Source: Clostridiales bacterium
Lineage (GTDB): Bacteria; Bacillota; Clostridia; DUOD01
Assembly (NCBI GenBank): GCA_012838995.1
Contig: DUOD01000028.1
Location: 1-53,231 of the forward strand
Length of the DNA: 53,231 nucleotides
Direction: 5' to 3'
Part shown: positions 3,199 to 25,071 of the stretch, one piece after another
Numbering within the stretch: the first letter of the stretch is position 1
Layout: every line of letters begins with the position of its first letter
Made by a program: the position numbers and the translations under genes
The notes under the pieces: generated by a model
What the model was told of the DNA's origin: nothing
Database searches by the model: none
What the model saw: the letters and a program-made list of their open reading frames with translations, nothing else

Positions 3199-5169
3199 AT
3201 GGTTTTAAAAGATTTGGTGCATATTTCCAATTATTTCGGTTCCAAGCCGGAATTTGTGCTGGCGGGGGGAGGCAACACTTCTTATAAAACCGCCGAGCAT
3301 CTATACGTCAAGGGTTCGGGTACGGTCCTGGCCGATATAACGGAAGAGGATTTTGTTAAGATGAACAGAAAACTCCTTGGACAGTTATGGGAAAGGGAGT
3401 ATTCCAAGGATCCTGCCGAAAGGGAGGCCCAGGTACTGGAGGATTTGATGAATGCCCGGGAGAGGAGCGAATATGATAAACGCCCAAGCTTGGAGACGCC
3501 CCTCCATGATATTCTGGATTATAAGTATGTGGTACATACCCATCCCACCCTTGTGAACGGTCTGACCTGTAGCAGGGACGGGCGGCAGGAGGCAGAAGAG
3601 TTGTTCGGCGACAGGGCCATATGGATCCCCGCCGCCAATCCCGGATACGCGCTGGTGTTGGCTGTTAGAAAAGAGCTGGAGAGGTATGTCGCCAAGCACG
3701 GCAGACATCCCCAAATAATACTTCTGCAGAACCATGGTATTTTTATTGGCGCGGATACCGTAGATGAAATAAAGGACATCGCCCATTACGTGGTAAAGGC
3801 CATTGAAGGCAGGATAAAGAGGCGCCCCGACCTGTCCCTGGCGGAGTTTGACAGGCAAAGGGCGGCTGATATATCGCCGGCCATAAGGATGCTTCTAAAG
3901 GGCGAGGGTAATTCCATCGTTACCTTTATATGCAATAAGGAGATATCAAGGTTGGTTGAAAGCGAACAGGCTTTTAAGGGCGTGTCTCTGGCTTTGTCCC
4001 CCGACCACATCGTTTATTGCAAGCACCGGCCCCTTTTCGTGCCGTATCGTCCGGACATGGAGGAGCAGTACGCCCTACTGGCCCAAAGGATTGACGAATA
4101 CAGGCAAAGGAATAATTTCCTTCCCAAGGTGGTGGCCGTGGAGAAACTGGGGGTATTTGCCTGGGGCCATAACAAAAAGGCAGCCGATATTACGGCCGCG
4201 GTTTTCTTAGACGCCGTTAAGATATCGGTTTACGCCCAATCTTTTGGCGGGAGTTTATTCCTCCCCCAGGATAAGATAGATTTTATCAATGACTGGGAGG
4301 CTGAGGCCTACAGGGCAAAGGTTAGCCTGGCCGATACAAGCGGCAAAAGACTGGATGAAAAGGTGGTCGTTGTAACGGGCAGCGCCCAGGGTTTTGGCAA
4401 AGGCATGGCCGAGGAGATGGCAAAGGAAGGGGCCAATGTAGTTATAGCCGATATCAATGACAAACTGGCCCAGCAGAATGCCCGCTCCATGTGCCGGTTG
4501 TACGGCAAGGGCAAGGCCATGGCCGTTAAGGTGGATGTGAGTCAGGAAGCCTCCGTTAGGGACATGATCATCGATACCGTACTGGCCTATGGCGGGCTGG
4601 ACGTGTTTATAAACAATGCCGGTGTTTTAAAGGCCGGCGGTTTGGAAGAAATGGACCTTAAGTCCTTCGAGTTTGTGACCAAGATAAATTATACCGCATA
4701 TTACCTTTGTACCAAGTACGCCAGCCGGCCCATGAAGATCCAGCACAGGTTTAATAAGAACTATTACACCGATATAATACAGATAAATTCCAAGTCCGGC
4801 CTGGCAGGCAGCAATAGAAACTTTGCCTATGCCGGAAGCAAATTCGGCGGTATCGGCCTAACCCAAAGCTTTGCTATGGAGCTGGTGGAATATAACATCA
4901 AAGTAAATGCCATCTGTCCCGGCAACTACTTCGACGGTCCCCTATGGTCCGATCCGGAAAACGGGTTGTTCGTGCAGTATTTGAAAGCCGGTAAGGTACC
5001 CGGAGCAAAAACCTTTGAGGATGTCAAAAGGTTTTACGAGGCAAAGGTACCCATGGGCAGGGGATGTTATCCGGTGGATGTGGCCAGGGCCATCCTTTAT
5101 GCCATAGAACAGCAGTACGAGACCGGCCAGGCCATACCGGTAACCGGCGGCCAGCAAATGCTCAAATGA
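3199..5169 (+). CDS. Fused class II aldolase / short-chain dehydrogenase (RhaEW/YuxG-like)
   Basis: This two-domain cytosolic enzyme joins a zinc-dependent class II aldolase (about residues 1-350) to an NAD(P)-dependent short-chain dehydrogenase (about 385-656). The aldolase half shows GGGNTS near residue 23, the metal-binding HTHP near 113 and QNHGIFIG near 178. The dehydrogenase half shows the nucleotide-binding TGSAQGFG near 393, NNAG near 472, a catalytic Ser in INSKSG and YAGSK near 544. Characterised relatives cleave rhamnulose-1-phosphate and oxidise the lactaldehyde formed. The exact sugar here is not provable from sequence. It has 656 residues against roughly 690 for B. subtilis YuxG. 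It is monocistronic, has the ribosome binding site AAAAGGGG, and ends at a strong terminator. No sugar kinase or isomerase for a deoxy-sugar pathway adjoins it. Confidence 0.85.
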   Translation: MVLKDLVHISNYFGSKPEFVLAGGGNTSYKTAEHLYVKGSGTVLADITEEDFVKMNRKLLGQLWEREYSKDPAEREAQVLEDLMNARERSEYDKRPSLETPLHDILDYKYVVHTHPTLVNGLTCSRDGRQEAEELFGDRAIWIPAANPGYALVLAVRKELERYVAKHGRHPQIILLQNHGIFIGADTVDEIKDIAHYVVKAIEGRIKRRPDLSLAEFDRQRAADISPAIRMLLKGEGNSIVTFICNKEISRLVESEQAFKGVSLALSPDHIVYCKHRPLFVPYRPDMEEQYALLAQRIDEYRQRNNFLPKVVAVEKLGVFAWGHNKKAADITAAVFLDAVKISVYAQSFGGSLFLPQDKIDFINDWEAEAYRAKVSLADTSGKRLDEKVVVVTGSAQGFGKGMAEEMAKEGANVVIADINDKLAQQNARSMCRLYGKGKAMAVKVDVSQEASVRDMIIDTVLAYGGLDVFINNAGVLKAGGLEEMDLKSFEFVTKINYTAYYLCTKYASRPMKIQHRFNKNYYTDIIQINSKSGLAGSNRNFAYAGSKFGGIGLTQSFAMELVEYNIKVNAICPGNYFDGPLWSDPENGLFVQYLKAGKVPGAKTFEDVKRFYEAKVPMGRGCYPVDVARAILYAIEQQYETGQAIPVTGGQQMLK

Positions 5170-5248
5170 TGTAAGGGGACGGCTGCAAAAAGTAGGAGAC
5201 ATAACAGCGAGGGCGTGGCTAAAAGGCATAGGTATAGACGGCGACGGT

Positions 5249-5281
5249 AGGGGAAACTTAAAAAGGTGTTTCCCCTTTTTA
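5249..5281 (+). terminator. Rho-independent terminator after the aldolase/dehydrogenase
   Basis: AGGGGAAAC (5249-5257) pairs with GTTTCCCCT (5268-5276), a 9-bp stem with a 10-nt loop, followed directly by a T-run. Confidence 0.8.
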
Positions 5282-5353
5282 TTTTCTGCCGGGAAATTAG
5301 CGGTGCAGGGTGTAATTTGTATTAAATTAAATATAGAAAAATTTTTATTATGA

Positions 5354-5378
5354 TGAACTTTTCCGGTACTTTTACGTT
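5354..5378 (+). promoter_or_regulatory. Candidate ECF-sigma promoter of the sigY-like operon
   Basis: TGAAC at 5354-5358 and CGTT at 5375-5378 are separated by 16 nt, the arrangement expected of ECF promoters (AAC-type -35, CGT-type -10). It lies just ahead of the sigma gene. B. subtilis SigY autoregulates from a related TGAAC...CGTC promoter, so autoregulation is inferred here too. Confidence 0.55.
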
Positions 5379-5403
5379 TAATTGTTAAAGGAAGGTAAAA
5401 TTT

Positions 5404-5940
5404 ATGGCAGGTGAGACCGAATTAATCAAGAGGGCACAGAGGGGAAACAGGCAGGCCTTAGAGCGACTCCTTAAGGATAATTACAGCATCCTCAGGGGTT
5501 ATCTTGTAAGGCTTACCCTGGATACTGCCCTGGCGGATGATTTGACCCAGGAGGTTATGGTAAGGGCCATAATAAACATTAATAGTTTTAAGCCCAGGGC
5601 CAAGTTTTCCACATGGCTTATTACCATAGGTACCAACCTTTACAGGGATTTAATGAGAAAGGAAAAAAGGCTTGTGCCCATAATGGATCATATGGCAGAT
5701 GATAAAAGGACGGCCATGGACGATTTAATGAGGGACAGGATTCAAATAGAAGAATTAAAGGAGATACTGTCAAAGCTGCCATACGAAAAAAGGGCGGTGG
5801 TGGTTTTGAAGCACTATTATGGCTATAAGTACCGGGAAATAGCCAAAATATTGGGCTGCCCGGTAGGCACCGTACGTTCCAGGCTTTATAACAGCATAAA
5901 TTTTATCAGAAAAGAAATGGAAAGGAGACAATGGCTGTGA
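5404..5940 (+). CDS. sigY: ECF RNA polymerase sigma factor, SigY-like
   Basis: This 178-residue extracytoplasmic-function sigma factor directs RNA polymerase to a small regulon. Region 2 spans about residues 10-85 and includes DDLTQEVMVRAI and KFSTWLITIGTNLYRD. Region 4, a helix-turn-helix, lies at about 120-170 with LPYEKRAVVVLKHYYGYKYR and GCPVGTVRSRLY. There is no region 1 or 3, as expected of an ECF factor. It heads five genes, sigma / zinc-finger anti-sigma / small membrane protein / ABC ATPase / ABC permease, the same arrangement as sigY-yxlCDEFG of B. subtilis. That synteny is the basis for the symbol, which should be read as SigY-like. The ribosome binding site AAGGAAGG precedes the ATG. 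The last codons overlap the start of the anti-sigma gene by 10 nt, suggesting coupled translation. Confidence 0.85.
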   Translation: MAGETELIKRAQRGNRQALERLLKDNYSILRGYLVRLTLDTALADDLTQEVMVRAIININSFKPRAKFSTWLITIGTNLYRDLMRKEKRLVPIMDHMADDKRTAMDDLMRDRIQIEELKEILSKLPYEKRAVVVLKHYYGYKYREIAKILGCPVGTVRSRLYNSINFIRKEMERRQWL

Positions 5941-6383
5941 AAAGGGATTGCAGGTGGTATAAGGAAAGATTGACGGATATAGCCTTTGACGAAGGGACCA
6001 TGGATGATGATACCAAGGCCCATTTAACGGCCTGTCTCCAATGCAGCACATACTTTGAACAACTGTCCGGTGTCCGGCAAAACTTGGATAAATTTTATCT
6101 TGACACCCATATAAACCTCCTGCAAATACAAAGGGCTTTTGTCAAGGCCGATGAAATAAAGGAAAAGGCTTGGTCTTCCAAGGACGGTAAAAAGAGCGGG
6201 GCGGGGGTTTCCCTAAAGGAAGTACTGCTCTTTATACTGTTGGCATTAACCGTACTCGTTACCCCCGCGGTTATACTGGCCCGTTTTAATATAAGGTATC
6301 TGTTGTATGTGCAAATTATCATTTATTTTAGCATGCCTTTGGTTTTACTGCCCCTGCTGAAGATCAGAAGGTACGATATATAG
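5931..6383 (+). CDS. Membrane-bound zinc-finger anti-sigma factor (YxlC-like position)
   Basis: The product probably holds its sigma partner inactive at the membrane. The N-terminal cytoplasmic part contains His31-x3-Cys35-x2-Cys38 (HLTACLQC), the zinc-binding signature of ZAS-type anti-sigma domains. Two transmembrane segments lie near residues 95-117 and 122-143, leaving a very short external loop, so a large sensory domain is absent. Signal perception therefore probably involves partner proteins, perhaps the next membrane protein or the ABC exporter. The ATG at 5931 is preceded by AAAGGAG inside the sigma gene. At 150 residues it is somewhat longer than I would expect for YxlC. The assignment rests on the motif, the topology and the adjacency to the sigma gene. 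Confidence 0.75.
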   Translation: MAVKRDCRWYKERLTDIAFDEGTMDDDTKAHLTACLQCSTYFEQLSGVRQNLDKFYLDTHINLLQIQRAFVKADEIKEKAWSSKDGKKSGAGVSLKEVLLFILLALTVLVTPAVILARFNIRYLLYVQIIIYFSMPLVLLPLLKIRRYDI

Positions 6384-6405
6384 CGACAAAGGAAGGTGCT
6401 GTGAT

Positions 6406-6741
6406 ATGGATTCCGGCAACTATTATTTCATAATTCCTATAGTTATCGCTCTGCTGATAACCCAGGCCGTCTGGATATTTATAGACGCCAAAAAAAGAGG
6501 TGAGAACCACTGGCTGTGGGGGTTATTCGGCCTTTTAAACGTACCCACGTCCCTTATCATTTATTTGATTGTAACCAGATATAAAAGGTCAAAATGTCCG
6601 TTTTGCGGCCAAGGTATCCACAAAGGATATAAATGTTGTCCCCACTGTGGTGAGCAGCTGCAGGGGTTGTGTAGTAAGTGCAACAGCGTTGTCAGGTATG
6701 ATTGGGAGTACTGTCCGGAGTGCGGCAGCAAATTAAAATGA
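6406..6741 (+). CDS. PLDc_N-like two-helix membrane protein with C-terminal double zinc ribbon
   Basis: The N-terminal half (residues 1-60) carries two hydrophobic segments around FIIPIVIALLITQAVWIFID and LWGLFGLLNVPTSLIIYL, joined by a short DAKKRGENHW loop. This is the layout of the phospholipase-D N-terminal (PLDc_N) membrane hairpin, as in YxlE. The C-terminal half is a treble pair of CxxC knuckles: C64/C67 with C78/C81, and C89/C92 with C103/C106, that is, two tandem zinc ribbons. As I recall YxlE it has only the hairpin, so the zinc ribbons look like a fusion or variant. It sits between the anti-sigma and ABC genes and may act with the anti-sigma factor or the exporter. No enzymatic activity is implied. 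Confidence 0.7.
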   Translation: MDSGNYYFIIPIVIALLITQAVWIFIDAKKRGENHWLWGLFGLLNVPTSLIIYLIVTRYKRSKCPFCGQGIHKGYKCCPHCGEQLQGLCSKCNSVVRYDWEYCPECGSKLK

Positions 6742-6843
6742 CGCAGCACTTCCTTTACCGGCAGTTTATATGCCCTTTGGCATGGGTCATGTATACGACA
6801 GGATGGCCGAAAAGAAGAACAAAAACGGATGGGAGGCTGTAGA

Positions 6844-7788
6844 TTGAAAGAGCGGATGATTGTCCTAGCAAATGTGTCCAAGGCCTTTGGCGACATAAAA
6901 GCCGTGGACGGGTTGAACTTCCATGTAAATAAGGGGGAAATACTGGGGTTGTTAGGGCCCAACGGTTCGGGTAAGACCACCACCATAAGGCTGATAAACG
7001 GTGTTATCTTCCCTGATGAGGGCGAAATCAAAGTCTTGGGATTGGACACCGTTAAAGACGGTAATGAAATCAGAAGCACTACCGGTGTGGTTACCGAATC
7101 GGCTGGCCTTTACGAAAACATGACGGCCCAGGCCAACCTGGAGTTTTTCGGCCGTATTTACGGCCTGTCCAACCAGGACCTGTCCGGCCGTATAAACCGT
7201 TTGCTTGGGCAGTTCGGCCTGGAGGATAGGCGCAATAGCAAGGTATCCCGGTTCAGCACCGGCATGAAAAAAAGGTTAAGCATCGCCAGGGCTCTTTTGC
7301 ACAAGCCGGAAATACTGTTTTTGGATGAACCCACCACCGGCCTGGACCCCGAATCGTCAAGGGATGTTTTAACCTACATAAAAAGGCTTAACCGGGAAGA
7401 GGGCATAACCATACTGGTTTGCACCCATAATCTGCCCGAGGCCGAGGGTTTATGTAATAGATATATTTTTCTGGACAGCGGCCGGATAATCGAACAGGGA
7501 AGGCTGGAGGACATGATAGAAAAATATACCACTTCGGTACAAATGGAAATACAATTCAGCGGTACCTTGGGAGATACCCTGTCGGGAGCGTCAAGTTATG
7601 AGCTGAAACCCTCCGGCAGGGTGTTGGTGACGCTGGAGGACAGAAAACAGGTGCCAAAATTTTTAAGAAGGCTGGCCAATAAGGTGGATATATACTCGGT
7701 TAATATGCTGAATAATAACCTGGAACAACTATATTTTGAGGTGAGGAGGGCTTTTTATGAGAAGACGGGCAATGGCGGCCATAATTAA
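6844..7788 (+). CDS. ABC-2 type exporter ATP-binding protein (YxlF/NatA-like)
   Basis: This is the ATPase half of an export-type ABC transporter. Walker A is GPNGSGKTT, the signature is FSTGMKKRLSIARAL (a GMKKR variant common in ABC-2 systems), and Walker B reads ILFLDEPTTGLDP, with a switch His in CTHNLPEAE. About 85 residues follow the core, as in NatA/YxlF. I start at TTG 6844, which has GGGAGG 8 nt upstream; the ATG at 6829 overlaps that ribosome binding site. The end overlaps the permease gene by 32 nt, so the two are translationally coupled and almost certainly form one transporter. The substrate is unknown. In B. subtilis the homologous YxlFG pair belongs to the SigY operon and is linked to control of SigY activity. 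Confidence 0.88.
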   Translation: MKERMIVLANVSKAFGDIKAVDGLNFHVNKGEILGLLGPNGSGKTTTIRLINGVIFPDEGEIKVLGLDTVKDGNEIRSTTGVVTESAGLYENMTAQANLEFFGRIYGLSNQDLSGRINRLLGQFGLEDRRNSKVSRFSTGMKKRLSIARALLHKPEILFLDEPTTGLDPESSRDVLTYIKRLNREEGITILVCTHNLPEAEGLCNRYIFLDSGRIIEQGRLEDMIEKYTTSVQMEIQFSGTLGDTLSGASSYELKPSGRVLVTLEDRKQVPKFLRRLANKVDIYSVNMLNNNLEQLYFEVRRAFYEKTGNGGHN

Positions 7789-10889: not shown

Positions 10890-10978
10890 ATACATAAAAG
10901 GTTAAAAAATCCTTTTCTATAAACCCCGAGGCAAATCAAAAGGCTTATCTAAAATTTTTTCATTAAGGAGTGATAGGG

Positions 10979-11959
10979 TTGATAAAAGATGCACTGGTGG
11001 CTAAGGAAAAGAAGGAAGATCTTATATTCTGGCTGAAACAAATGCACCATATAAGATACTTCGAAGAAATGGTAATGCAGTTATTGGCGGAGAACTATGT
11101 TAAAGGCGGTTCCCACTGTTATGCAGGTCAGGAGGCCGTTGCGGTAGGTGCCTGTGCCGCCATAAGGAAGGACGATTACATAACCAGCACCCACAGGGGC
11201 CACGGCCACGGTATAGCAAAGGGAGGAAAGCTCAATGAACTGATGGCCGAGATCTGCGGCAAGGCCGCGGGATGTTGTAAGGGTAAAGGCGGAAGCTTGC
11301 ATTTGGCTGACCTGTCAACGGGTAATTTGGGAGCCAACGGTATAGTGGGGGGCAGCTTCGGTATAGCGGCGGGTGCGGCCCTGACGTGCAAGATGAAAAA
11401 ACTGGACAGGGTAGTGCTTTGTTTCTACGGAGACGGTGCGGCCAACCAGGGCATAGCCCACGAATCCATGAACATGGCAGCTACCTGGAAGCTTCCGGTT
11501 ATTTATATATGCGAGAACAATCTATACGGTATGTCGGTTTCGGTAAATAGGGCAGCCTCTGTGGAGGATCTGGCGGTTAGAGCCCTTGCCTACGACATGC
11601 CCTATAAGATAGTGGACGGTATGGACGTACTGGCCGTTAAAGAAGCCGTCGAGCAAGCGGCAGAGAGGGCCAGGAAGGGCGAAGGACCCATGCTCATAGA
11701 ATGTAAGACCTACAGGTACTACGGTCATTCAAGAAGCGATGCCAGGGTTTATAGAACCAAGGAAGAAGAAAAATACTGGAAGGACAGGGATCCAATACCC
11801 AATTTCGCAAAAAGGCTGATAGAAAACGGAATAATAACAGAGGATGAGGCTAAGGAAATAGATGCCCAAGCCAAAAAGGACATAGAGGATGCGACCAAGT
11901 TTGCCAAAGACGCCCCCTATCCTGAGCCGGAAGCCCTGTTTGAAGATTTATACGCCTAA
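10979..11959 (+). CDS. 2-oxoacid/acetoin dehydrogenase E1 alpha subunit (TPP-dependent)
   Basis: This is the thiamine-pyrophosphate-binding half of the E1 decarboxylase. It shows the TPP motif GDGAANQG followed by ENNLYGMSVSVNRAA, and the substrate-site region GSHCYAGQEAVAVG and HRGHGHGIAKGG. At about 326 residues it is the short AcoA/PdhA type. The TTG at 10979 is chosen because AAGGAG ends 8 nt before it; the upstream GTG overlaps that ribosome binding site. It is first in a tight operon with E1beta (30-nt gap) and E2 (15-nt gap). Short E1alpha proteins of this kind are annotated as pyruvate, acetoin or branched-chain dehydrogenases. Acetoin or pyruvate is likeliest here, but sequence alone does not decide. 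Confidence 0.88.
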   Translation: MIKDALVAKEKKEDLIFWLKQMHHIRYFEEMVMQLLAENYVKGGSHCYAGQEAVAVGACAAIRKDDYITSTHRGHGHGIAKGGKLNELMAEICGKAAGCCKGKGGSLHLADLSTGNLGANGIVGGSFGIAAGAALTCKMKKLDRVVLCFYGDGAANQGIAHESMNMAATWKLPVIYICENNLYGMSVSVNRAASVEDLAVRALAYDMPYKIVDGMDVLAVKEAVEQAAERARKGEGPMLIECKTYRYYGHSRSDARVYRTKEEEKYWKDRDPIPNFAKRLIENGIITEDEAKEIDAQAKKDIEDATKFAKDAPYPEPEALFEDLYA

Positions 11960-11989
11960 TAAAAACATTTTGGAAGAAGGTGAAATTGT

Positions 11990-12964
11990 ATGCGTGAGGT
12001 AAGGTATTGGCAGGCATTAAACGAAGCGCTGAGGGAAGAACTCGATCGGGATCCCGATGTTTTTGTAATGGGAGAAGATGTAGGTATATATGGCGGTGCC
12101 TACGGAGTGACCAAAGGGCTGTATGAAGATTACGGCGAAGAACGTATCAGGGACACGGCCATCAGCGAACAGGTCATAGTAGGTGCCGCGGTGGGAGCGG
12201 CCATGACGGGCATGCGTCCCGTGGCCGAAATAATGTATGTGGACTTTTTAGGCGTTGCCATGGACCAGATTTTTAACCAGGCCGCAAAGATTAGGTATAT
12301 GTTCGGTGGCAAGGCAAAGGTACCCATGACGCTTAGGACCCAGGGGGGTACCGGAAGGGGCCTTGCAGCCCAGCATTCCCAAAGTCTGGAATCGTGGTTT
12401 TTACACGTACCCGGCCTAAAGGTGGTTATGCCGTCTACCCCCTATGATGCCAAGGGATTGTTAAAGGCAGCCATAAGGGACGACAACCCGGTATTGTTTA
12501 TAGAACATAAAATGCTATACGGCACCAAGGGTATGATTCCCGACGGCGAGTACATAGTACCCCTGGGCCTGGCCGATGTAAAAAGACCGGGCAGCGATGT
12601 GACGGTGGTAGCCCATTCAAGGATGTTGCTGTATGCCCTCGAAGCCGCCGAGACCTTGGAGAAAGAAGGCATTTCGGTGGAGGTAATTGACCCCAGGACG
12701 CTGGCGCCCTTGGATATGGACACCATCATGACGTCGGTTAAAAAGACCGGCAGGGTGGTGCTGGTGGAAGAGGGCTGCAAGACCGGCGGTGTGGGCGGCG
12801 AGATAGCCACCAGAATAATGGAAGAAGGTTTTTACTACCTGGATGCGCCCATTATCAGGGTGGCGGCCAAAGACGTACCCATACCCATGAGCCCGGCGCT
12901 GGAACCCTTGGCCGTGCCCAGCGTCCAAGAAATCATTGACGCCGTTAAAAAGCTGTATGTGTAA
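11990..12964 (+). CDS. 2-oxoacid/acetoin dehydrogenase E1 beta subunit
   Basis: This is the transketolase-type beta subunit that completes the E1 active site. Family landmarks are in order: [84 protein letters not shown] and the C-terminal transketolase domain with [14 protein letters not shown]. It has 324 residues, which is complete. The ribosome binding site is GAAGAAGGTGA. It lies between E1alpha and E2, so all three make one complex with the divergent E3. A decayed second E1beta copy is found at 20814-21347, which suggests the ancestor had a further complex of this type. Confidence 0.93.
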
Positions 12965-12979
12965 GGATGGTGAAGACAA

Positions 12980-14251
12980 GTGATAAAGGAACTAAAACTG
13001 CCCAAGATGAGCGACACCATGGACACCGGCCAAATAACCAAATGGCTTGTTAAGGAAGGCGATTTCATAAAAAAGGGCGATCCCATCTTTGAGATGCAGA
13101 CCGATAAGGTAAACCTTGAGGTGGAGGCCCTGGAAGAGGGCGTGCTCCTTAAGATAGTGGGTAAGGAAGGGGAGGATATCCCCGTGGGTCAGGTGATTGC
13201 CTATTTGGGCGACGAGGGTGATAAGGTTTCCGACATACCCGCCCAGCCCCAGGAAGGGCAGGAGAAAAAGCAGGAAACAGAGGCCAAAACCGAGGATGTA
13301 CAAATGCCTAAGCCCTCTTCTGCTCCCGATATCCAACCCGAACCTACTCCCGACATACCTTCCATGGAAAAACCCAAGGGAGATAGGATATTTATCTCGC
13401 CCCGGGCAAGGGCGTTGGCCCAAAGGGAAAAGGTGGATTATTCTGCCATTAAAGGAACCGGGCCCATGGGCGAGATCATAGAGCGTGATATTAAGGAATA
13501 CCTGGCCAAATCTGCGCTGCAGCAGCCCGCGCCCTCAAAAGAGCAGGCAGTACCGTCAACGGCGGCACAGGGACAGCGGATTGAAATGACCGGCATGCGG
13601 AAGGTTATCGCCGAGAGGATGCTGGCCAGTGTGGCGGCCGCTCCCCATATTTATTTGACCGCCGACATAGACATGACCCAGTGCAGGGATATGCGTACAA
13701 AGATAAACGACAGCCTTGCCGACAAAGGCATTAAGATATCCTATAACGATATCATAATAAAAGCCTGTGCCCTTGCCCTAAAGGAATATCCTTACATAAA
13801 CAGTACCTTAAAAGACGGAGCCATAATACTCCAGGACAGAATAAATATAGGCGTGGCGGTAAGCCTGGCCGACGGTTTGATAGTTCCTGTTGTGAGGGAT
13901 ACCGATAAGAAAACCATAGTGGAGATATCAAAGGAAATTAAGGAACTGGCCGGCAAGGCCAGGGAAGGTAAGCTCATGCCGGATGAGTTCAGCGGAGGCA
14001 CCTTTACGGTATCCAACCTGGGCATGTTTGACATTACTCAATTCACCGCTATTATAAACCAACCGGAAAGCGCCATACTGGCAGTGGGCGCCATAAAGGA
14101 TACCTTCGTCCCGGTGGACGGCCGGCCCGTTGTAAAGCCCATGATGAAGGTCACCCTATCTTGTGATCACAGGGTGATTGACGGTGCCGTCGGTGCCCAG
14201 TTCCTTAAGTTTGTAAAATCCATGCTGGAAAATCCCCTTTTGATGCTGTAA
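12980..14251 (+). CDS. Dihydrolipoamide acyltransferase (E2)
   Basis: This is the core of the dehydrogenase complex, transferring the acyl group from lipoate to CoA. There is a single N-terminal lipoyl domain, with the lipoylated Lys43 in QTDKVNLEV. A Pro/Glu/Gln-rich linker follows (about residues 85-135), then the E3-binding domain (ISPRARALAQREKVDY ... GTGPMGEIIERDI), a second linker and the catalytic domain ending in SCDHRVIDGAVGAQFL. That last motif carries the catalytic HRVxDG. It has 423 residues, with GTG start and GGATGGTGAAG ribosome binding site. A hairpin follows at 14261. Confidence 0.93.
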   Translation: MIKELKLPKMSDTMDTGQITKWLVKEGDFIKKGDPIFEMQTDKVNLEVEALEEGVLLKIVGKEGEDIPVGQVIAYLGDEGDKVSDIPAQPQEGQEKKQETEAKTEDVQMPKPSSAPDIQPEPTPDIPSMEKPKGDRIFISPRARALAQREKVDYSAIKGTGPMGEIIERDIKEYLAKSALQQPAPSKEQAVPSTAAQGQRIEMTGMRKVIAERMLASVAAAPHIYLTADIDMTQCRDMRTKINDSLADKGIKISYNDIIIKACALALKEYPYINSTLKDGAIILQDRINIGVAVSLADGLIVPVVRDTDKKTIVEISKEIKELAGKAREGKLMPDEFSGGTFTVSNLGMFDITQFTAIINQPESAILAVGAIKDTFVPVDGRPVVKPMMKVTLSCDHRVIDGAVGAQFLKFVKSMLENPLLML

Positions 14252-16612: not shown

Positions 16613-17878
16613 ATGAAAACAAAGGCTGTAAGACTTTACGGCGAAAGGGATTTGCGGCTGGAGGAATTCGAGTTACCCGCAATAAAGGAAGACGAGATAC
16701 TGGCCCGGGTTGTTACCGACAGCGTATGCATGTCGACCCATAAAGCCGTTATCCAGGGCAGCCGTCACAAAAGGGTGCCCAAGGATATCGATAAAAACCC
16801 CACCATTATCGGTCACGAATTTTGCGGGGAGATACTCGAGGTAGGAGATAAATGGAAGGATAAGTTTAAACCCGGGGACAAGTTTACCATTCAACCGGCG
16901 TTAAACTATAAGGGCAGTCTTGCCGCGCCGGGTTATTCCTATAGATATATCGGCGGTAATGCTACCCATGTCATAATACCCAACGAGGTAATGGAAATGG
17001 ACTGTCTGCTCAAGTATAACGGCGATGCCTTTTTCCACGGTTCCCTGGCAGAGCCCATGTCCTGTGTGATAGGTGCCTTCCATGCCAGCTACCACACCGT
17101 CAGCGGCTCCTATGTCCATAACATGGGTATTGTAGAGGGCGGTAATATGGCCATCCTGGCAGGGGCCGGGCCCATGGGCCTGGGTGCCATTGACTATGCC
17201 CTTCACTGCGACAGAAAACCGGACCTACTGGTGGTGACTGATATTGACGACAGCAGGCTGCGAAGGGCAAAGTCCATATTTACCGAGCAAGAGGCGAGAA
17301 AGAACGGCATAACCTTATTATACGTAGATACGAAGGACATGGAAAAGCCGGAGGAATATCTACTGTCATTGACCGACGGTAAAGGATATGACGATGTATT
17401 TGTTTACGCGCCCGTCAGGTCCGTTGTGGAAACGGGCGACAGGATACTGGGCAGGGACGGGTGTCTCAATTTCTTTGCCGGACCCACCGATCCCAACTTC
17501 ACGGCGGAGTTCAATTTCTACAACGTCCATTACGCTTCAACCCATATTGTGGGTACCAGCGGCGGCAACACCGATGATATGATAGAATCTCTGGAAATGA
17601 TGGAAAAGGGGCTTTTAAACCCCGCTGTAATGATAACCCATATTGGCGGTCTAAACAGCGTTATCGACACAATCTTAAACCTACCCAATATTCCAGGCGG
17701 TAAAAAGCTGATATACAACGATATAGACCTGGAGCTGACGGCCATAGAGGATTTTAGGAAAAAGGGAAGAACCAATCCTATGTTTGAAAAATTGGCTGAA
17801 ATAGTGGAGGCCAATAATGGGCTGTGGTGCACGGAGGCAGAGGAGTATCTGCTGGCCAATGCAAAGCCGATAGGATAA
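16613..17878 (+). CDS. Zinc-type alcohol dehydrogenase, L-sorbose-1-phosphate reductase-like
   Basis: This is a medium-chain dehydrogenase of 421 residues. It has the family landmarks VCMSTHKAVIQGSRHKR, IGHEFCGEI (GHE metal site), a GSLAEPMSCVIGAFHASY segment that closes the active site, and the nucleotide-binding AGAGPMGLGAIDYAL. The closest family I recall is SorE, which reduces L-sorbose-1-phosphate to glucitol-6-phosphate. That fits a polyol-phosphate route with the MtlD-like gene upstream. It is not a simple sorbitol dehydrogenase: it is longer, and the typical catalytic-zinc Cys is replaced in a VCMST context. The ribosome binding site GGGAGG precedes the ATG. The segment ends in a strong hairpin at 18131. 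Confidence 0.75.
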   Translation: MKTKAVRLYGERDLRLEEFELPAIKEDEILARVVTDSVCMSTHKAVIQGSRHKRVPKDIDKNPTIIGHEFCGEILEVGDKWKDKFKPGDKFTIQPALNYKGSLAAPGYSYRYIGGNATHVIIPNEVMEMDCLLKYNGDAFFHGSLAEPMSCVIGAFHASYHTVSGSYVHNMGIVEGGNMAILAGAGPMGLGAIDYALHCDRKPDLLVVTDIDDSRLRRAKSIFTEQEARKNGITLLYVDTKDMEKPEEYLLSLTDGKGYDDVFVYAPVRSVVETGDRILGRDGCLNFFAGPTDPNFTAEFNFYNVHYASTHIVGTSGGNTDDMIESLEMMEKGLLNPAVMITHIGGLNSVIDTILNLPNIPGGKKLIYNDIDLELTAIEDFRKKGRTNPMFEKLAEIVEANNGLWCTEAEEYLLANAKPIG

Positions 17879-18130
17879 AGGTTTGTTGTGTGTGGTGGAT
17901 CCAACTGCCCAGTATATGCTTCCGATCGTCAGGATATTTTGGTATGTATTTATACAATGTTCCGTGGCAGTTAGCCGATCTTTAAGAAATCCGCCCGTCA
18001 TTGTTTCGGGTGTGCGGGCTATATTGACAAAGACCTAAAACATGCCAAGGCGGTGAGAGTCTCGCATTTGTTTTCGTCCGGCAAGGCGCGTTAGCATAAA
18101 TCCATAATATACCATGGTAGTGAAATTGCA

Positions 18131-18171
18131 AAAAAATTCTGGATCATTAAAACAAGGATCCAGAATTTTTT
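18131..18171. terminator. Strong rho-independent terminator
   Basis: A perfect 15-bp stem: 18131-18145 (AAAAAATTCTGGATC) pairs with 18157-18171 around an 11-nt loop. The stem ends in a T-run in both directions. Confidence 0.85.
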
Positions 18172-18286
18172 ATATGAAGTTAGGCTCACCCAGAATAAAC
18201 TTACCCCTTTTACCCTCCGCCGTCCGGCCTGCCCGGCCTTTGAAGGGACGGATAAATAGGCGGTCTTTCCGGAAGTAGAGTTTTTG

Positions 18287-19576: not shown

Positions 19577-19924
19577 TAATACTTAAGAATCAAAAGACGA
19601 GCGGGCCTGTTTGGACCCGCTTGTTTTTTGTCTTTTTGCAAAACAAAAATAAACAAAAAAATAAAAAGGATTTTCAAAGGATATGTAGAATATATAGATT
19701 GTGGCAAACAAGCCTTTTCTGGCATAATAACCGGCCTTTGTCGTTATTTAGAAACTTTTGGAAAAACCAAGCAACAGGGAAACATCCCTTTGCCGAATAT
19801 TTCAAAAGACGGACGCCAGTCATAATGCCACTCATATACATCTAAAGCCTGTAGTGCAAAGGACGATGTACCATACTAAGGCGTTTTTTGTACAGTGAAA
19901 AATTAAACCGAGGGGATGGAGACA
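19577..19924. other. Intergenic region upstream of the second DeoR gene
   Basis: This stretch contains the terminator of the iron-dependent dehydrogenase and then AT-rich DNA. Short open frames here (plus strand, 19567-19845) have no ribosome binding site and read as Lys/Asn-rich low complexity, so they are not called. No clear operator for the DeoR protein was found. Confidence 0.45.
19600..19628 (+). terminator. Terminator after the iron-dependent dehydrogenase
   Basis: AGCGGG (19600-19605) pairs with CCCGCT (19616-19621), followed by TTGTTTTTTG. Flanking AAAAGAC and GTCTTTT can extend the base of the structure. Confidence 0.7.
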
Positions 19925-20698
19925 ATGCTCCCAGAAGCAAGGCGCGAGGAAATACTTGCCTACATTAGAAATGTAAAAAATGCAACCAGTGAAGAGCTGA
20001 GCAAAAGATTTAAAGTGACCGAAGAGACCATACGAAAAGACCTGAAGTATCTGGCCAACCGGGGTTTTATAATCAGGACCTTTGGTGGAGCGATGATTAA
20101 GGCCGAAAATAATTCCTCCTTTGATCGGGGAGCTGTAACAAACCACGAAGAAGATGCGATTGCCCAAAAAGCCTCTTCCTTTATCGACGACAGCGAGAGT
20201 ATAATTTTGGACGCAGGTTCCGCCAACGTTCAGCTTGCAAAATATATCCGGGAAAATTCCGATGTGGTGGTGGTTACAAATTCCCTCAGAATAATAAATA
20301 TAATTTCTAAAATGCAGGGAATTACGGTCATATCCACGGGCGGCACCCTTAGGACAAAGTCCATGTCCTTCCAGGGCCAGCTGGCCGAATATACCATTGA
20401 AAAATATAACATCCATAAAGCCTTTATTTCCGCCAAGGGCGTCAGTTTGGATGAGGGTGTTATGGACAGCAATGAATTGGAAGCCGAGATTAAACGGAAG
20501 ATGATAGCTGCGGCCAAAGAAGTTATACTTCTTGTCGACCATACCAAATTCGGGAAGATTACCCACGTGACGGTATGCCCCATTGACAAGGTGACCACCA
20601 TTGTTACCGATGACAAGACCCATCCCGAAATTTTACAGGCTTACAAAGACCGGGGCATAGATATAGCCATAGGCAAGTTGGAAAACAAAAAAGTGTAA
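19925..20698 (+). CDS. DeoR-family regulator of the microcompartment segment
   Basis: This is a 257-residue DeoR/GlpR-type repressor. The winged helix-turn-helix spans residues 1-58 (MLPEARREEILAYI, then TSEELSKRFKVTEETIRKDL and GFIIRTFGGAM), followed by the sugar-phosphate sensing domain with IAQKASSFIDDSESIILDAG. I prefer ATG 19925, which gives the usual DeoR start ML-x-E-x-RR and lies 9 nt after GAGGGG; ATG 19916 touches that ribosome binding site. It is followed by the E1beta pseudogene and the aldolase/BMC-P/kinase genes on the same strand, so it is the natural local regulator. It differs clearly from the DeoR protein at 14396. Confidence 0.88.
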   Translation: MLPEARREEILAYIRNVKNATSEELSKRFKVTEETIRKDLKYLANRGFIIRTFGGAMIKAENNSSFDRGAVTNHEEDAIAQKASSFIDDSESIILDAGSANVQLAKYIRENSDVVVVTNSLRIINIISKMQGITVISTGGTLRTKSMSFQGQLAEYTIEKYNIHKAFISAKGVSLDEGVMDSNELEAEIKRKMIAAAKEVILLVDHTKFGKITHVTVCPIDKVTTIVTDDKTHPEILQAYKDRGIDIAIGKLENKKV

Positions 20699-20813
20699 TT
20701 TAGGTAGGTTGAAAAATTCGAAAACCCAAAAGAGCAGCGAAATTATATCGGGAAACATACCATTACCTTGGGTTTTCCAACAATACCCTATGGAAGGGAG
20801 TGCAATAAACTTT

Positions 20814-21347
20814 ATGGAAAAACAGGAAAATGGAATTTTAACTATTGCAGAAGCCCTGAGAGAGGGTATAATAGAATAGATGGAAAGGGATCCATCGGTA
20901 ATTTGTATTGGCGTAGATATCGGCATCGAAGATGACCGATGCGGAGACCCCATCGCGTCCTTTAACTATTGAAGAAGAACTTCCCCAATGTACTATCAAT
21001 GCGCCTGTATCGGAGATTGCGTTGTTCGGGTCGGCCCTCGGTAGTGCCGTAATGGGCATGACGTTCGTTGTAGACGTACAGTATGGCGATTTTCTGATCC
21101 GGGCAATGGACAAAATGATAAGTCAAATATCCATGATGAGGTATATGTCGGAAGACGGGGTAGAGGTGCCATTGGTGATGCAGATGCCGGTATAGGGGTT
21201 TTCAGCATAGAGGCCCGGCATGTCGGTTTAATGGAATCGAGGTTTACGAGCATTCCGGGAATGAAGATGGCATGCCCGTCCAATGCCTATGATGCCAAGG
21301 GTATGATCAAGATAAAAGATAGTGTTATAAAAACAACTAAGTATTGA
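20814..21347 (+). pseudogene. Decayed E1 beta subunit of a 2-oxoacid dehydrogenase
   Basis: Remnants of an E1beta gene can be followed through three frames. ATG 20814 with GGAAGGGAG upstream reads LTIAEALREGIIE, then TAG at 20877, then MERDPSVICIGVDIGIEDD. A shift leads to TINAPVSEIALFGSALGSAV, DVQYGDFLIRAMDKM and MMRYMSEDGVEVPLVM. A further shift gives GLMESRFTSIPGMKMACPS and NAYDAKGMIK before TGA at 21345. The C-terminal transketolase domain is missing. The order of blocks matches the intact E1beta at 11990, but the residues differ enough that it was a distinct paralogue, not a recent copy. The 87-codon open frame at 20932-21195 is part of this relic. Confidence 0.85.
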
Positions 21348-21361
21348 GAGGTATGGGTTAA

Positions 21362-22219
21362 ATGATTGAGTTCAGAGTTAAGCAAGACATTATAGAAGTA
21401 GGAAAGCGCATGTATGATAAGGGTTTCGTAGCTTCCAATGACGGTAACATCAGCGCCAGGATATCTGAAGACCGGATAATAATAACCCCCACCGGGGTGT
21501 CCAAGGGATATATGTCGGAATACGATTTGATAACCGTGGATATGCAGGGTAACGTGGTGTACGGCGATAAAAAACCGTCATCGGAGATAAAAATGCACCT
21601 GGCGGTATACAGGAAAAGACCGGACGTAAAAGCCATTGTCCATGCCCATCCCCCTGCAGCCACCGCCTTTGCAGTGGCTAACAAGAACTTGGACAAGATT
21701 ACCCTGCCGGAGGTGGTGTTTTCCCTGGGCAATATAGCCATGGCGGAATACGGCACGCCCAGCACCGATAAAATACCCATGGCCGTGGAAAAGTGTATAG
21801 ACAGGTCGGATGCACTGCTTTTGGCCAACCACGGCGCCCTGACGGTAGGCGGAGACGTAATGGACGCATACTATAAAATGGAGACCCTGGAACATTTTGC
21901 TAAGATTTCGCTGTATGCAAGGTTGTTGGGCGGAGAGCGGGTACTGGACGAAGAGGAGACCAGAGAACTTTTTAGGGTGAGGAAGGAAGTGTACGGCAGG
22001 GACAATTTCCTGTACGCCGATAAAGACACCGGTGATACCGAATCGACGGATAACCGCGGGTCAGCATCGGACCAAATTGGCGGCGACGTTGGTGCCGGTG
22101 AGCAAAGCCCGCCGGATAATAAGTCCGAGCCTATGGTACGATCCACGGTGATTGGCCACGTCGAAGATGCCGTAAAAAGGCTGGTGATGGAAGAGATTAA
22201 AAAGTCAAGCCTGTTTTAG
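21362..22219 (+). CDS. Class II sugar-phosphate aldolase with a microcompartment-targeting tail
   Basis: This zinc-dependent aldolase of the fuculose-1-phosphate/ribulose-5-phosphate epimerase family has 285 residues. The catalytic domain (1-215) shows DGNISAR, the Thr-Gly loop TPTGVSKG, metal ligands in HAHPPAATAF (HxH) and ANHGALTVGG. After residue 217 an acidic, Gly/Ser/Asp-rich linker of about 45 residues leads to a short amphipathic helix (STVIGHVEDAVKRLVMEEI) at the extreme C-terminus. Linker plus helix is the signature of encapsulation peptides that bind BMC shell proteins. Three BMC-P genes follow directly, which supports that reading. Relatives in PVM-type microcompartments cleave fuculose- or rhamnulose-phosphate to dihydroxyacetone phosphate and lactaldehyde. 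The sugar used here is not known. Confidence 0.88.
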   Translation: MIEFRVKQDIIEVGKRMYDKGFVASNDGNISARISEDRIIITPTGVSKGYMSEYDLITVDMQGNVVYGDKKPSSEIKMHLAVYRKRPDVKAIVHAHPPAATAFAVANKNLDKITLPEVVFSLGNIAMAEYGTPSTDKIPMAVEKCIDRSDALLLANHGALTVGGDVMDAYYKMETLEHFAKISLYARLLGGERVLDEEETRELFRVRKEVYGRDNFLYADKDTGDTESTDNRGSASDQIGGDVGAGEQSPPDNKSEPMVRSTVIGHVEDAVKRLVMEEIKKSSLF

Positions 22220-22255
22220 GTTATTATTTTATAAAGATTAGGATGGTGATTTGTT

Positions 22256-22552
22256 GTGATAGTTGGGAAGATCGTTGGAAATATAGTATGCACCCAGAAG
22301 GATGAAAATTTGGTGGGCAAGAAAATGCTTCTGGTACAGCCTTTGAATGTTAAATCACTGGAACCCCAGGGCAGCCCTGTGGTGGCCTTGGATGCGGTGG
22401 GTGCCGGTGAAGGCGAAGTGGTTTTGTTGGTAGGCGGCAGTTCCGCCAGACTGGCCGACAACTATTCCACGGTACCGGTTGACCAGGCCATTGTGGGCAT
22501 ACTGGACAGTATAGACATAGAGGGCAAGTTGATATACAAAAAACAAAAATAA
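22256..22552 (+). CDS. BMC-P shell vertex protein (EutN/CcmL family), copy 1
   Basis: This small beta-barrel protein forms pentamers capping the vertices of bacterial microcompartments. It has 98 residues beginning with the family start MIVGKIVGNIVCTQKDENLVGKK, here split around the Lys-Asp-Glu turn. It continues with LLVQPL, then VALDAVGAGEGEVVLLVGGSSAR, and ends AIVGILDSIDIEG, the conserved barrel-closing strand. It starts with GTG and has GGATGGTG upstream. It is 36 nt after the aldolase and first of three consecutive BMC-P genes. It differs from copies 2 and 3 throughout, so the three are old paralogues, not recent duplicates. Confidence 0.93.
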   Translation: MIVGKIVGNIVCTQKDENLVGKKMLLVQPLNVKSLEPQGSPVVALDAVGAGEGEVVLLVGGSSARLADNYSTVPVDQAIVGILDSIDIEGKLIYKKQK

Positions 22553-22613
22553 ATTTGACATTTTTTTTAAAAGACAACCTTGGGAGGATATAACGACAAT
22601 AAGGAGGCTTTTT

Positions 22614-22916
22614 ATGTTTTATGGCAGAGTAATAGGATCGGTTGTATGCACCGCCAAGGATGAAAAATTAATGGGTTTTAAATTGCTTGTGGTACAAAAG
22701 ACCAATTACGACGGCGAGGATGAGGGCGAGGCCATAGTTGCGGTAGACGCCGTCCAGGCCGGAGTGGGGGATTTTGTGTTCATGACCAGGGGAAAGGAAT
22801 CTGCCCTTCCGTTAAGTGATAAATCCATTCCGGTTGAGGAAGTTCTTAGGGACAAGGGCGCACCGGTGGATGCTACCATAGTAGGAATAATAGATAAAAT
22901 ATCGGTAAGACGATAG
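22614..22916 (+). CDS. BMC-P shell vertex protein (EutN/CcmL family), copy 2
   Basis: This 100-residue BMC-P protein begins MFYGRVIGSVVCTAKDEKL and has the core AIVAVDAVQAGVGDFVFMTRG. It ends with the strand ATIVGIIDKISVRR. It differs from its neighbours by an acidic insertion (NYDGEDEGE) after the second strand and by a longer loop before the last strand (LSDKSIPVEEVLRDKGAPVD). Both insertions should lie on the exposed face of the pentamer and may give it a special role. The ribosome binding site AAGGAGG is strong. Confidence 0.93.
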   Translation: MFYGRVIGSVVCTAKDEKLMGFKLLVVQKTNYDGEDEGEAIVAVDAVQAGVGDFVFMTRGKESALPLSDKSIPVEEVLRDKGAPVDATIVGIIDKISVRR

Positions 22917-22936
22917 TTAAAATGTGAGGTATAATT

Positions 22937-23194
22937 ATGATTGTGGGTAAGGTAATAGGTTGTGTTGTATCGACCTGTAAGGATCAGGCCCTTTTGGGCA
23001 AAAAGTTGTTGATAGTCCAACCCAAATCCGAAGTTGGTACCAAAAAAACCTTTATAGCCATCGACTGCGTGGATGCAGGCGTCGGCGATACCGTGGTTTT
23101 TGTGATGGAAGGCGGGTCGGCAAGGCAGGCTGCCGATTGTATTGACGGCCCAGTGGATGCTTCCATCGTAGGGGTGTTGGATTACGATATATAG
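22937..23194 (+). CDS. BMC-P shell vertex protein (EutN/CcmL family), copy 3
   Basis: At 85 residues this is the shortest and most canonical of the three vertex proteins. It starts MIVGKVIGCVVSTCKDQAL, has LLIVQPKSEV, the core FIAIDCVDAGVGDTVVFV, the GGSAR turn, and ends DASIVGVLDYDI. It carries four Cys residues (C9, C14, C49, C70), more than either neighbour; whether they bind anything is unknown. It lies 20 nt after copy 2 with GAGGT upstream. Its stop is followed by about 180 nt before the kinase gene, in which no BMC-H gene is found. Confidence 0.93.
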   Translation: MIVGKVIGCVVSTCKDQALLGKKLLIVQPKSEVGTKKTFIAIDCVDAGVGDTVVFVMEGGSARQAADCIDGPVDASIVGVLDYDI

Positions 23195-23378
23195 ATAAGA
23201 TATTGCGGGAGGATATGGTAAGGCCTGACGGGAGATTGGCTGTCTACTTAGCGCACACCCGAGGTATAAAGCCGCCGGCAAGCAAGAATTTTTACATAAG
23301 AGTTATTGCGGTATGGTGTAAATTACCGGCTCCCGTAATTAAATAAACAACGGTAAAAAACGCCAAAGGGAGGAAGGT

Positions 23379-24578
23379 ATGAAGGTTTTTATACTGAACT
23401 GCGGCGGTTCGTCGGTTAAATTTCAGTTGGTGGACATGCCGGGATATAGGGTATTGGCAAAGGGTTCGGTGGAACGGGTAGGCAAGGAAGACGCCGTGTT
23501 TAAGTTCAAGGCCCGGGACAGGGACGAGTCGGTATCTGTAATTAATATTGCCGATCACCGACAGGGTATCGGGATTATAATAGATACATTGCTGGATTCT
23601 AACAATAATATAGTAAAGGATATTGATGATATAGATGCCATAGGTCATAGGGTGGTTCATGGCGGCGAAAGGTGTAAGGAATCCGTTCTTATCGATGACG
23701 CCGTGATGGAAAACATCAAGGCCTGTGCACAACTGGCGCCCCTCCATAATCCGGCCAGTATAGCGGGTATTCAATCCTGCAGTGCCGTATTTGGGGATAT
23801 ACCCCAGGTGGCCGTTTTTGATAACGGGCTGCACCAGACCCTACCGGATTATATCTATCTGTACGCTCTGCCTTACGAATATTATGAGAAGTACGGTATC
23901 CGTAAGTACGGATTCCATGGCATAGCCTTCAGGAGCATAGTCCAGGGCATAACGCGGCTGTTGGGCAGGCGGTATGAGAACATGCGGATTGTGTCCCTGA
24001 TGCTGGGCAGCGGTACCACCGCCAATGCAATGAAATACGGCCGATCCATTGAGATAAGCACCGGCTTTACTCCTTTGGAAGGCCTTATCCAATCAACCAG
24101 GGCGGGGGATATTGACCCTGCTGCCGTGTTGTATTTAATGAAGAAGGAGGGTTTTTCGCCCTCAAAGATGGAGGACATCTTAAACAAGCAAAGCGGTTGG
24201 CTGGGGTTGTCGGGGATAAGCAATGACATGCGGGAGATATACAATGCCGCCATACAAGGCGATGACCGGGCCAAAACCGCCATAGAGGCGGTGGTCCATA
24301 GGATAAAAAAATATATCGGCGCCTATTGTGCCGTCATGGGCGGCATGGACGTGCTGGCCTTTTCCGGCGGGGTAGGAGAGAATGCATGGTATATAAGGGA
24401 AATGGCCTGCCGGGACATGGAATACCTCGGGCTGGAACTGGACGAAGACGGCAATAGGGGCTTAAAGGGTGAAGGGCTGATAAGTACGCCTCAATCCCGT
24501 GTCAAAATAGCAGTGGTTAATGCCAATGAAGAGCAAATCATTGCCCAGGATACCTACGATATTGTATCTAAAATGTAG
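23379..24578 (+). CDS. Divergent acetate/propionate kinase homologue
   Basis: This 399-residue ASKHA-fold kinase probably makes ATP from an acyl phosphate produced by the microcompartment pathway. Most catalytic residues known from the Methanosarcina enzyme are present: Asn7 (NCGGSSVK), Arg in GHRVVHGG, His in APLHNP, Asp in FDNGLHQ, His in YGFHG, Arg in TRAGDIDP and Glu in NANEEQ. Two conserved loops differ: the first has Gly for Ser10, and the usual HLGNG phosphate/nucleotide loop reads MLGSG, losing the His and Asn. The FHGTSH motif is FHGIAF. These are features of a specialised paralogue, not a housekeeping AckA, and no pta gene adjoins it. The ribosome binding site GGGAGGAAGG is strong. 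Confidence 0.85.
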   Translation: MKVFILNCGGSSVKFQLVDMPGYRVLAKGSVERVGKEDAVFKFKARDRDESVSVINIADHRQGIGIIIDTLLDSNNNIVKDIDDIDAIGHRVVHGGERCKESVLIDDAVMENIKACAQLAPLHNPASIAGIQSCSAVFGDIPQVAVFDNGLHQTLPDYIYLYALPYEYYEKYGIRKYGFHGIAFRSIVQGITRLLGRRYENMRIVSLMLGSGTTANAMKYGRSIEISTGFTPLEGLIQSTRAGDIDPAAVLYLMKKEGFSPSKMEDILNKQSGWLGLSGISNDMREIYNAAIQGDDRAKTAIEAVVHRIKKYIGAYCAVMGGMDVLAFSGGVGENAWYIREMACRDMEYLGLELDEDGNRGLKGEGLISTPQSRVKIAVVNANEEQIIAQDTYDIVSKM

Positions 24579-25071
24579 CTGCGGTTTAGAGCATGGCTAT
24601 AGCAGTGTTAAAATAATGCATATAACAATCGACAAGCCAATTACCGAGAAGAAAATCAAAAGATACTCCTTTTCCTTACGGGTGAGTAAGAATTCATTAG
24701 GAGTATCATATTTTTTTCTTTTTCTGAATAATTTTTTAAGTGCTGATATTAGGTGCATGATTATTATCCCTTCTCCTATCTTGTATAAGCTTTGACCATC
24801 ACAATTTTAACATATTAGATACCATGATTCCATGGTAAATATGGCCCAAAGTCCATGGATTCAAGTACTACCGGGGTTTGTTTGCAGGTGATTGTACCCG
24901 TCAGAATAACTAAACAATATTTTCTGTATTAACGTTCAACTTCCATCGCTATCGAGGTTATCAGCTCAAGTGTCGGTAAAAATACAGCTTCCTAATATAT
25001 TTCATCCGGTAGGTGTGCATATGCAACTTTAGCATGTCACCGCCGGCCGGGGATTATGCGGAGAAGGGCGG
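24579..25071. other. Intergenic region between convergent operons
   Basis: Apart from the terminator at 24662 nothing gene-like is seen. Two short palindromic-looking stretches near 24825-24860 (CCATGATTCCATGG and GTCCATGGATTC) share CCATGG but form no array. Confidence 0.45.
24662..24720 (+). terminator. Terminator of the aldolase/BMC-P/kinase operon
   Basis: GATACTCCT (24662-24670) pairs with AGGAGTATC (24699-24707), with an inner CTTAC/GTAAG hairpin (24675-24679, 24686-24690), followed by ATATTTTTTTCTTTTT. Confidence 0.75.

Follow-up and report, generated by a model that had tools for sequence, protein, structure and literature searches.

The vertex-protein operon

The window analysed here is a 53,231-nt stretch of Clostridiales bacterium DNA (contig DUOD01000028.1 of assembly GCA_012838995.1, forward strand) that carries part of a bacterial microcompartment (BMC) gene set, all of it on the plus strand. 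A DeoR-family regulator (19916-20698; best NCBIfam match of the SrlR/AgaR type, E 1.6e-61, below the equivalog cut-offs) is followed by a class II aldolase of the fuculose/rhamnulose-phosphate type with a linker and a C-terminal helix resembling an encapsulation peptide (21362-22219; assigned by profile, structure matches, alignment and AlphaFold), by three BMC-P vertex proteins of the EutN/CcmL family, and by an acyl-phosphate kinase of the acetate/propionate kinase family (23379-24578; TIGR00016, 440 bits). The vertex proteins P1 (22256-22552), P2 (22614-22916) and P3 (22937-23194) scored 95.9, 94.7 and 79.8 bits with PF03319, for which 25 bits is the cut-off. The genes from DeoR to the kinase were intact and in the order given by a sequence-only reading of this DNA, and profiles and AlphaFold confirmed what it had named: an aldolase with a tail, three different BMC-P, a kinase and a DeoR regulator ahead. 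That reading had also found no BMC-H tile, aldehyde dehydrogenase or phosphotransacylase in the window, and whole-genome searches indeed placed no PF00936 protein and no PduL there; the annotation of open reading frames stopped short of the final 21 kb of the window. Its list of parts holds, but it overlooked a decayed gene between DeoR and the aldolase.

The operon is preceded by a SigH-type promoter (AGGATTTTCAAAGGATATGTAGAATA; 19667-19692, plus strand), an exact match to AGGA-N13-TGTAGAATA located 224 nt 5′ of the DeoR start. Behind the kinase, a GATACTCC ... GGAGTATC stem with a long loop, followed by a T run, was read from the sequence as a probable terminator (24660-24722, plus strand); its loop exceeds the length taken by the terminator scan. 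A further terminator-like stem (19600-19621) stands 3′ of the preceding Fe-alcohol-dehydrogenase gene and has a T-rich tail on either strand, the minus-strand one matched by the consensus scan and the plus-strand T run seen by eye.

The aldolase matches fuculose-phosphate aldolase structures, and its residues Glu75, His94, His96 and His157 are invariant in 11 homologues. The matching glutamate and three histidines of FucA have a catalytic role. AlphaFold predicts a confident core up to about residue 211, a disordered linker of ∼50 residues (to residue 264), and a helix at residues 265-283.

The decayed gene (20814-21350, plus strand) encoded the E1-beta subunit of a 2-oxoacid dehydrogenase. 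It is spread over three frames and has lost its C-terminal third; tblastn with intact E1-beta proteins gave E values of 7e-19 and 5e-22 across the three pieces, and a Transket_pyr domain lies within it (20932-21192). An intact E1-alpha/E1-beta/E2 set is present in the window at 10970-14251. In the genes that follow the decayed one, constraint is apparent: relative to their orthologues in the metagenome-assembled genome (MAG) Ruminiclostridium sp. MnB_11 (G391), the aldolase and P1-P3 genes were identical at 78-88% of second codon positions versus 28-43% of third ones. This excess of third-position divergence indicates that the aldolase and the three BMC-P genes are under purifying selection and hence in use, although their neighbour has decayed.

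Shell tiles and core enzymes on other contigs

The whole genome (1.92 Mb in 70 contigs, 98% complete, estimated contamination 0.05%) was searched for the missing parts. With PF03319, the three BMC-P of the window were the only ones recovered. PF00936 proteins were found on contig C68, which encodes two EutM-like BMC-H and a two-domain, PduT-like BMC-T, and, as a single gene, on contig C34. C68 carries, in this order, a pair of TIM-barrel isomerase-like genes, a YiiL-like mutarotase and a sugar ABC transporter whose binding protein is RhaS-like; a SorC-type regulator, the sole PduL of the genome, a TIGR02536/EutQ-like protein, a CoA-acylating aldehyde dehydrogenase and an RnfC/PduS protein follow, and then come the BMC-T, the two BMC-H, a DeoC-type aldolase (pfam01791; 17482-18279 of locus L009 on C68), two Zn-alcohol dehydrogenases and a rhamnulokinase-like gene. 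Several of these C68 identities scored below the NCBIfam equivalog cut-offs. The absence of tiles noted by the sequence-only reading is therefore local, and its proposal of a satellite locus, complementing an organelle encoded at another site, is borne out by the PF00936 proteins, PduL and aldehyde dehydrogenase of C68. From the coordinates, the two gene strings would be ∼22 kb apart even if the contigs abutted.

Putative encapsulation tags were found on both sides. The C-terminus of the window aldolase and the N-termini of the C68 aldehyde dehydrogenase, DeoC and EutQ-like protein all had helical moments beyond the 98th percentile, and the amphipathic tag of PduL was weaker (93rd percentile). 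The helices of the aldolase and PduL (VEDAVKRLVMEEIKK and IKDAIKRIITNEILK) look alike by eye, a likeness that is a visual impression only.

The PF00936 gene on C34 is an orphan: at 5171-6844 of locus L010 on this contig, a GrpU-like, Fe-S-type BMC-H lies beside a GltD-like oxidoreductase. The protein matched solved GrpU-type structures (E 2e-19) and carries G-X-C-P-Q-N/H, the GrpU pore motif (PMC6325248). According to the literature, grpU hardly ever occurs outside glycyl-radical BMC loci; no such locus was seen among the BMC loci of this genome.

Since C68 has no BMC-P, neither locus is a main locus, and the two are complementary halves in which each shell class is encoded once. We consider it likely that the window carries the vertex-and-aldolase half of a single metabolosome whose other half is on C68. 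The sequence-only reading had offered, as an alternative, an unusual vertex-rich assembly, taken here to include one built of vertices alone, with no hexameric tiles. Three BMC-P genes with no adjoining tile might be taken that way, and triplets are thought to hint at additional BMC-P roles (PMC8217296), but triplets are usual in complete loci (PMC8217296), the orthologous triplet accompanies tiles in G391, and the present genome itself encodes tiles and core enzymes. We found nothing in support of such an assembly and give it almost no credence.

It could also be argued that C68 was binned from another organism, given that the assembly is in 70 contigs and that the C68 transporter half, with a tetranucleotide correlation of 0.42, falls at the lower margin of the sampled contigs (0.45-0.68). 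However, the BMC half of C68 is typical (0.62), its GC content is within the range of the genome, and the estimated contamination is minimal. Furthermore, the C68 aldehyde dehydrogenase, RnfC and BMC-T share with the window aldolase and BMC-P one and the same relative (see below), and without C68 the genome would possess vertex proteins with GrpU as its sole tile. A binning artefact is thus very unlikely.

A SigH-type element at both loci

Comparison of intergenic DNA revealed AGGA-N13-TGTAGAATA at the window operon and at four places on C68, where one pair precedes the transporter and the other the SorC-PduL string. The genome holds 12 exact copies in 1.92 Mb, five of them at these two loci, and no copy of the reversed pattern. 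The presence of 4 of the 12 copies on the 22-kb C68 has a Poisson probability of 1.4e-5, and the expectation for the 339 bases 5′ of the window operon is 0.0007 copies; both values make the case look somewhat too strong, as the motif was chosen after it had been seen. In Clostridium difficile, spoVS is a SigH gene. The SigH-dependent promoter of CD0142 in that species contains AGGATTATGAGAGTTCGTGTAGAATA (PMC7438776, Table 3). We read the element as SigH-type because its AGGA and GAAT boxes have the spacing of the CD0142 promoter, because another copy precedes a spoVS-like gene (so called on account of its sequence and its position behind ymdB), and because the genome encodes a SigH protein (380 bits, cut-off 295). 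A looser, Bacillus subtilis-style SigH pattern was uninformative, as it fitted neither in spacing nor in bases.

An inverted repeat, ACAAATG-N15-CATATGT, lies just 3′ of the SigH-type promoters on C68 (4282-4310 and 10372-10400 of L009) and may be the operator to which the SorC-type regulator binds. It was absent from the window, so an operator common to both loci was discarded, as were common catabolite-repression (CRE) sites, none of which was found near either operon. The simplest picture would be a common sigma factor with separate local regulators, DeoR at the window and the SorC-type protein on C68.

The promoter also bears on the view that the window locus is the eroded remnant of an old PVM-like organelle, its aldolase and kinase now cytosolic and C68 alone forming an open compartment without vertices. 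The decayed E1-beta gene would suit such a history, and ETU loci without BMC-P have been described (PMC4207490), a type for which an open compartment has likewise been discussed. Against it, the operon retains a SigH-type promoter like that of C68, and the three BMC-P genes are intact, as is the aldolase with its tail, all four being subject to the purifying selection described above. We regard such erosion as improbable.

Orthologues and the origin of the split

Within the class, 106 of 391 genomes encode BMC-P, and three adjacent BMC-P genes occur in two, the present genome and G154, where PduL, BMC-H, aldehyde dehydrogenase, DeoC and the triplet form one string. When 84,980 species genomes were scanned, the closest aldolase to emerge was that of MnB_11 (72% identical over the core), on contig VEPD01000139.1. 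The gene order there is E2, aldolase, two BMC-H, a short PDU-like gene, BMC-P, aldehyde dehydrogenase, RnfC and BMC-T; a second contig of this MAG (C427) ends with two BMC-P and PduL. P1 pairs with the BMC-P of the first contig (SH-aLRT 99), and P2 and P3 pair with one each of those on the second (SH-aLRT 97 and 100). The frame of the MAG's third BMC-P (6457-6702 of locus L080 on C427) contains one TAG, and this gene may be broken or mis-sequenced.

The C68 aldehyde dehydrogenase, RnfC and BMC-T share small tree groups with those of the same MAG. Support is moderate, and the groups also take in Spirochaete SPU-type loci and, for BMC-T, some others. In both genomes a 2-oxoacid dehydrogenase gene stands 5′ of the aldolase, the decayed E1-beta in the window and E2 in the MAG. 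The orthology of the window genes, the grouping of the C68 proteins with those of the MAG and the shared 2-oxoacid dehydrogenase neighbour favour the break-up of one locus, and the split probably arose in this way from a single ancestral locus.

A different origin would be a merger, in which C68 is an SPU-type core that lost its own BMC-P and borrowed vertices from a reduced PVM-like locus, so that two aldolases came to serve one shell. The tagged DeoC on C68 and the grouping of its aldehyde dehydrogenase and RnfC with Spirochaete SPU-type loci are in keeping with this. On the other hand, forcing the C68 and SPU aldehyde dehydrogenases into one clade gave a worse fit (p-AU 0.08), whereas sisterhood of the C68 and MAG enzymes was not rejected and fitted slightly better than the free tree. 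In addition, RpiB (pfam02502), a part of SPU loci, was not recognised among the C68 genes, which were scanned in part, the genome not having been searched for PF02502. We consider a merger possible but rather unlikely; it bears on the origin alone and would make little difference to present function.

Several points weigh against assigning the two loci to one organelle. The genome is a draft, and it is the sole member of its GTDB family and order among the genomes compared. Trees of PduL and BMC-H gave no resolution, and the two BMC-H of C68 have closest relatives other than those of the MAG. As to the promoter, the motif was picked post hoc, the local regulators of the halves differ, and in the other BMC regions searched no copy was found 5′ of a BMC operon. 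The element as a general feature of BMCs was accordingly rejected, 1.3 Mb of such regions having yielded one strict match, 3′ of an operon.

Proposed function

In the single metabolosome that we favour, C68 would supply the wall (two BMC-H and BMC-T) and the core chemistry (aldehyde dehydrogenase, PduL and PduS), and the window would supply the corner pieces, an aldehyde-generating aldolase and an ATP-yielding kinase. L-rhamnose may enter by the RhaS-like ABC transporter and be converted to rhamnulose-1-phosphate by the mutarotase, isomerase and rhamnulokinase of C68. Retained in the lumen through its C-terminal helix, the tagged aldolase would cleave this to dihydroxyacetone phosphate and lactaldehyde. 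Lactaldehyde would then pass to lactyl-CoA (aldehyde dehydrogenase), lactyl-phosphate (PduL) and finally lactate with the formation of ATP (kinase), NADH being rebalanced by the alcohol dehydrogenases and PduS/PduT. The tagged DeoC may add acetaldehyde to the same lumen, and two different tagged aldolases could thus serve one shell. The two halves would be co-expressed and co-assembled, with a predicted SigH promoter on each and DeoR and the SorC-type protein in local control; the whole would be a PVM-like rhamnose organelle, possibly switched on at the transition phase.

The window kinase is the second copy in the genome, the other, on C31, being 45% identical. The best match found was one of the kinases of a BMC locus in G036 (55% identical), where one shell set lies amid two aldehyde dehydrogenases and two acetate-kinase-family genes (5918-16514 of L133). 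The window also encodes, at 3199-5169, a bifunctional aldolase/short-chain dehydrogenase (best match the RhaD-type TIGR02632, below cut-off), by which the same sugar phosphate might take a second route, in the cytosol.

Relation to known microcompartments

Satellite loci have been defined by Axen 2014 (PMC4207490) and Sutter 2021 (PMC8217296), and a main BMC locus by the published rule holds one BMC-H plus one BMC-P. With three contiguous PF03319 genes and no PF00936 gene, the window has the single shell class of a satellite, but a main locus with both kinds is lacking, as C68 and C34 carry PF00936 genes only. By the published rule, which requires BMC-H and BMC-P in one locus, the genome thus has no main locus, though all parts are present. 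Judged by its parts the system would work like a PVM metabolosome, but these are not gathered in one locus: the class II aldolase with its C-terminal, encapsulation-peptide-like helix and the BMC-P triplet are in the window, and the BMC-H, aldehyde dehydrogenase and PduL are on C68. The label PVM-like, given by the sequence-only reading, suits the window genes; with DeoC in the other half, the two together depart from the textbook PVM.

The closest counterpart is MnB_11, with its orthologous tagged aldolase, BMC-P triplet, adjoining 2-oxoacid dehydrogenase gene and related aldehyde dehydrogenase, RnfC and BMC-T. It differs in having aldolase, BMC-H, BMC-P, aldehyde dehydrogenase, RnfC and BMC-T in one string, and no DeoC or kinase was seen on its short contigs. 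In HO BMCs a satellite of BMC-P plus aldolase, explained by fission (Sutter 2021, PMC8217296), likewise lies apart from the tile locus. There, two BMC-P have moved, versus all three here, where the window half includes a kinase and C68 retains no BMC-P. Candidatus Solibacter usitatus has a PVM-like locus without BMC-P, and two loci forming one organelle were suggested (PMC4207490); in our case the vertex locus has no BMC-H, so that shell parts are fully partitioned. FRAG BMCs (Sutter 2021, PMC8217296) share the BMC-P triplet and the placing of shell genes at several sites, but these are mostly remote from enzymes, whereas here both halves hold pathway enzymes.

C68 resembles SPU and SPU-like BMCs in its tagged DeoC, aldehyde dehydrogenase, PduL and PduS, and SPU-like loci combine a class II aldolase with an acetate kinase (PMC4207490). 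In contrast to SPU BMCs, both the class II aldolase and DeoC are present here, on different contigs. With GRM5 (fucose/rhamnose) BMCs the system shares a class II aldolase, PduS, PduT, DeoR and a Zn-alcohol dehydrogenase, and the GRM5-like locus L137 has a rhamnulokinase, as does C68. It differs in having three BMC-P versus one, and no open reading frame of the size of the GRM5 glycyl radical propanediol dehydratase and activase was seen on C68 or at the window locus, the rest being unsearched.

Satellites and split organelles are already known; what differs here is that vertices and tiles occur together at neither of the two loci. All BMC-P are on one side and all BMC-H and BMC-T on the others, the pathway enzymes are shared between the halves, and the same alternative-sigma promoter stands on both. 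Vertex and tile genes that could be removed or induced separately make this a natural system in which the role of three different BMC-P is directly testable. The SigH promoter on both halves, if true, would link a sugar organelle with the switch between growth and sporulation; a literature search on SigH together with microcompartments gave one paper, which concerns C. difficile cocultures. We would propose, tentatively and with some doubt, that both loci are SigH-driven but gated by different sugar regulators, so that vertex supply and shell closure are separable from tile supply.

Tagged aldolases away from shell genes were also observed elsewhere. At 9893-10816 of L014 (Spirochaete) and 9815-10768 of L015, class II aldolases carry encapsulation-type C-terminal tails, with no shell genes detected within 10 kb on either side. 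Both genomes carry BMC loci with DeoC at other places, and these unlinked aldolases suggest that unlinked cargo has been overlooked more widely.

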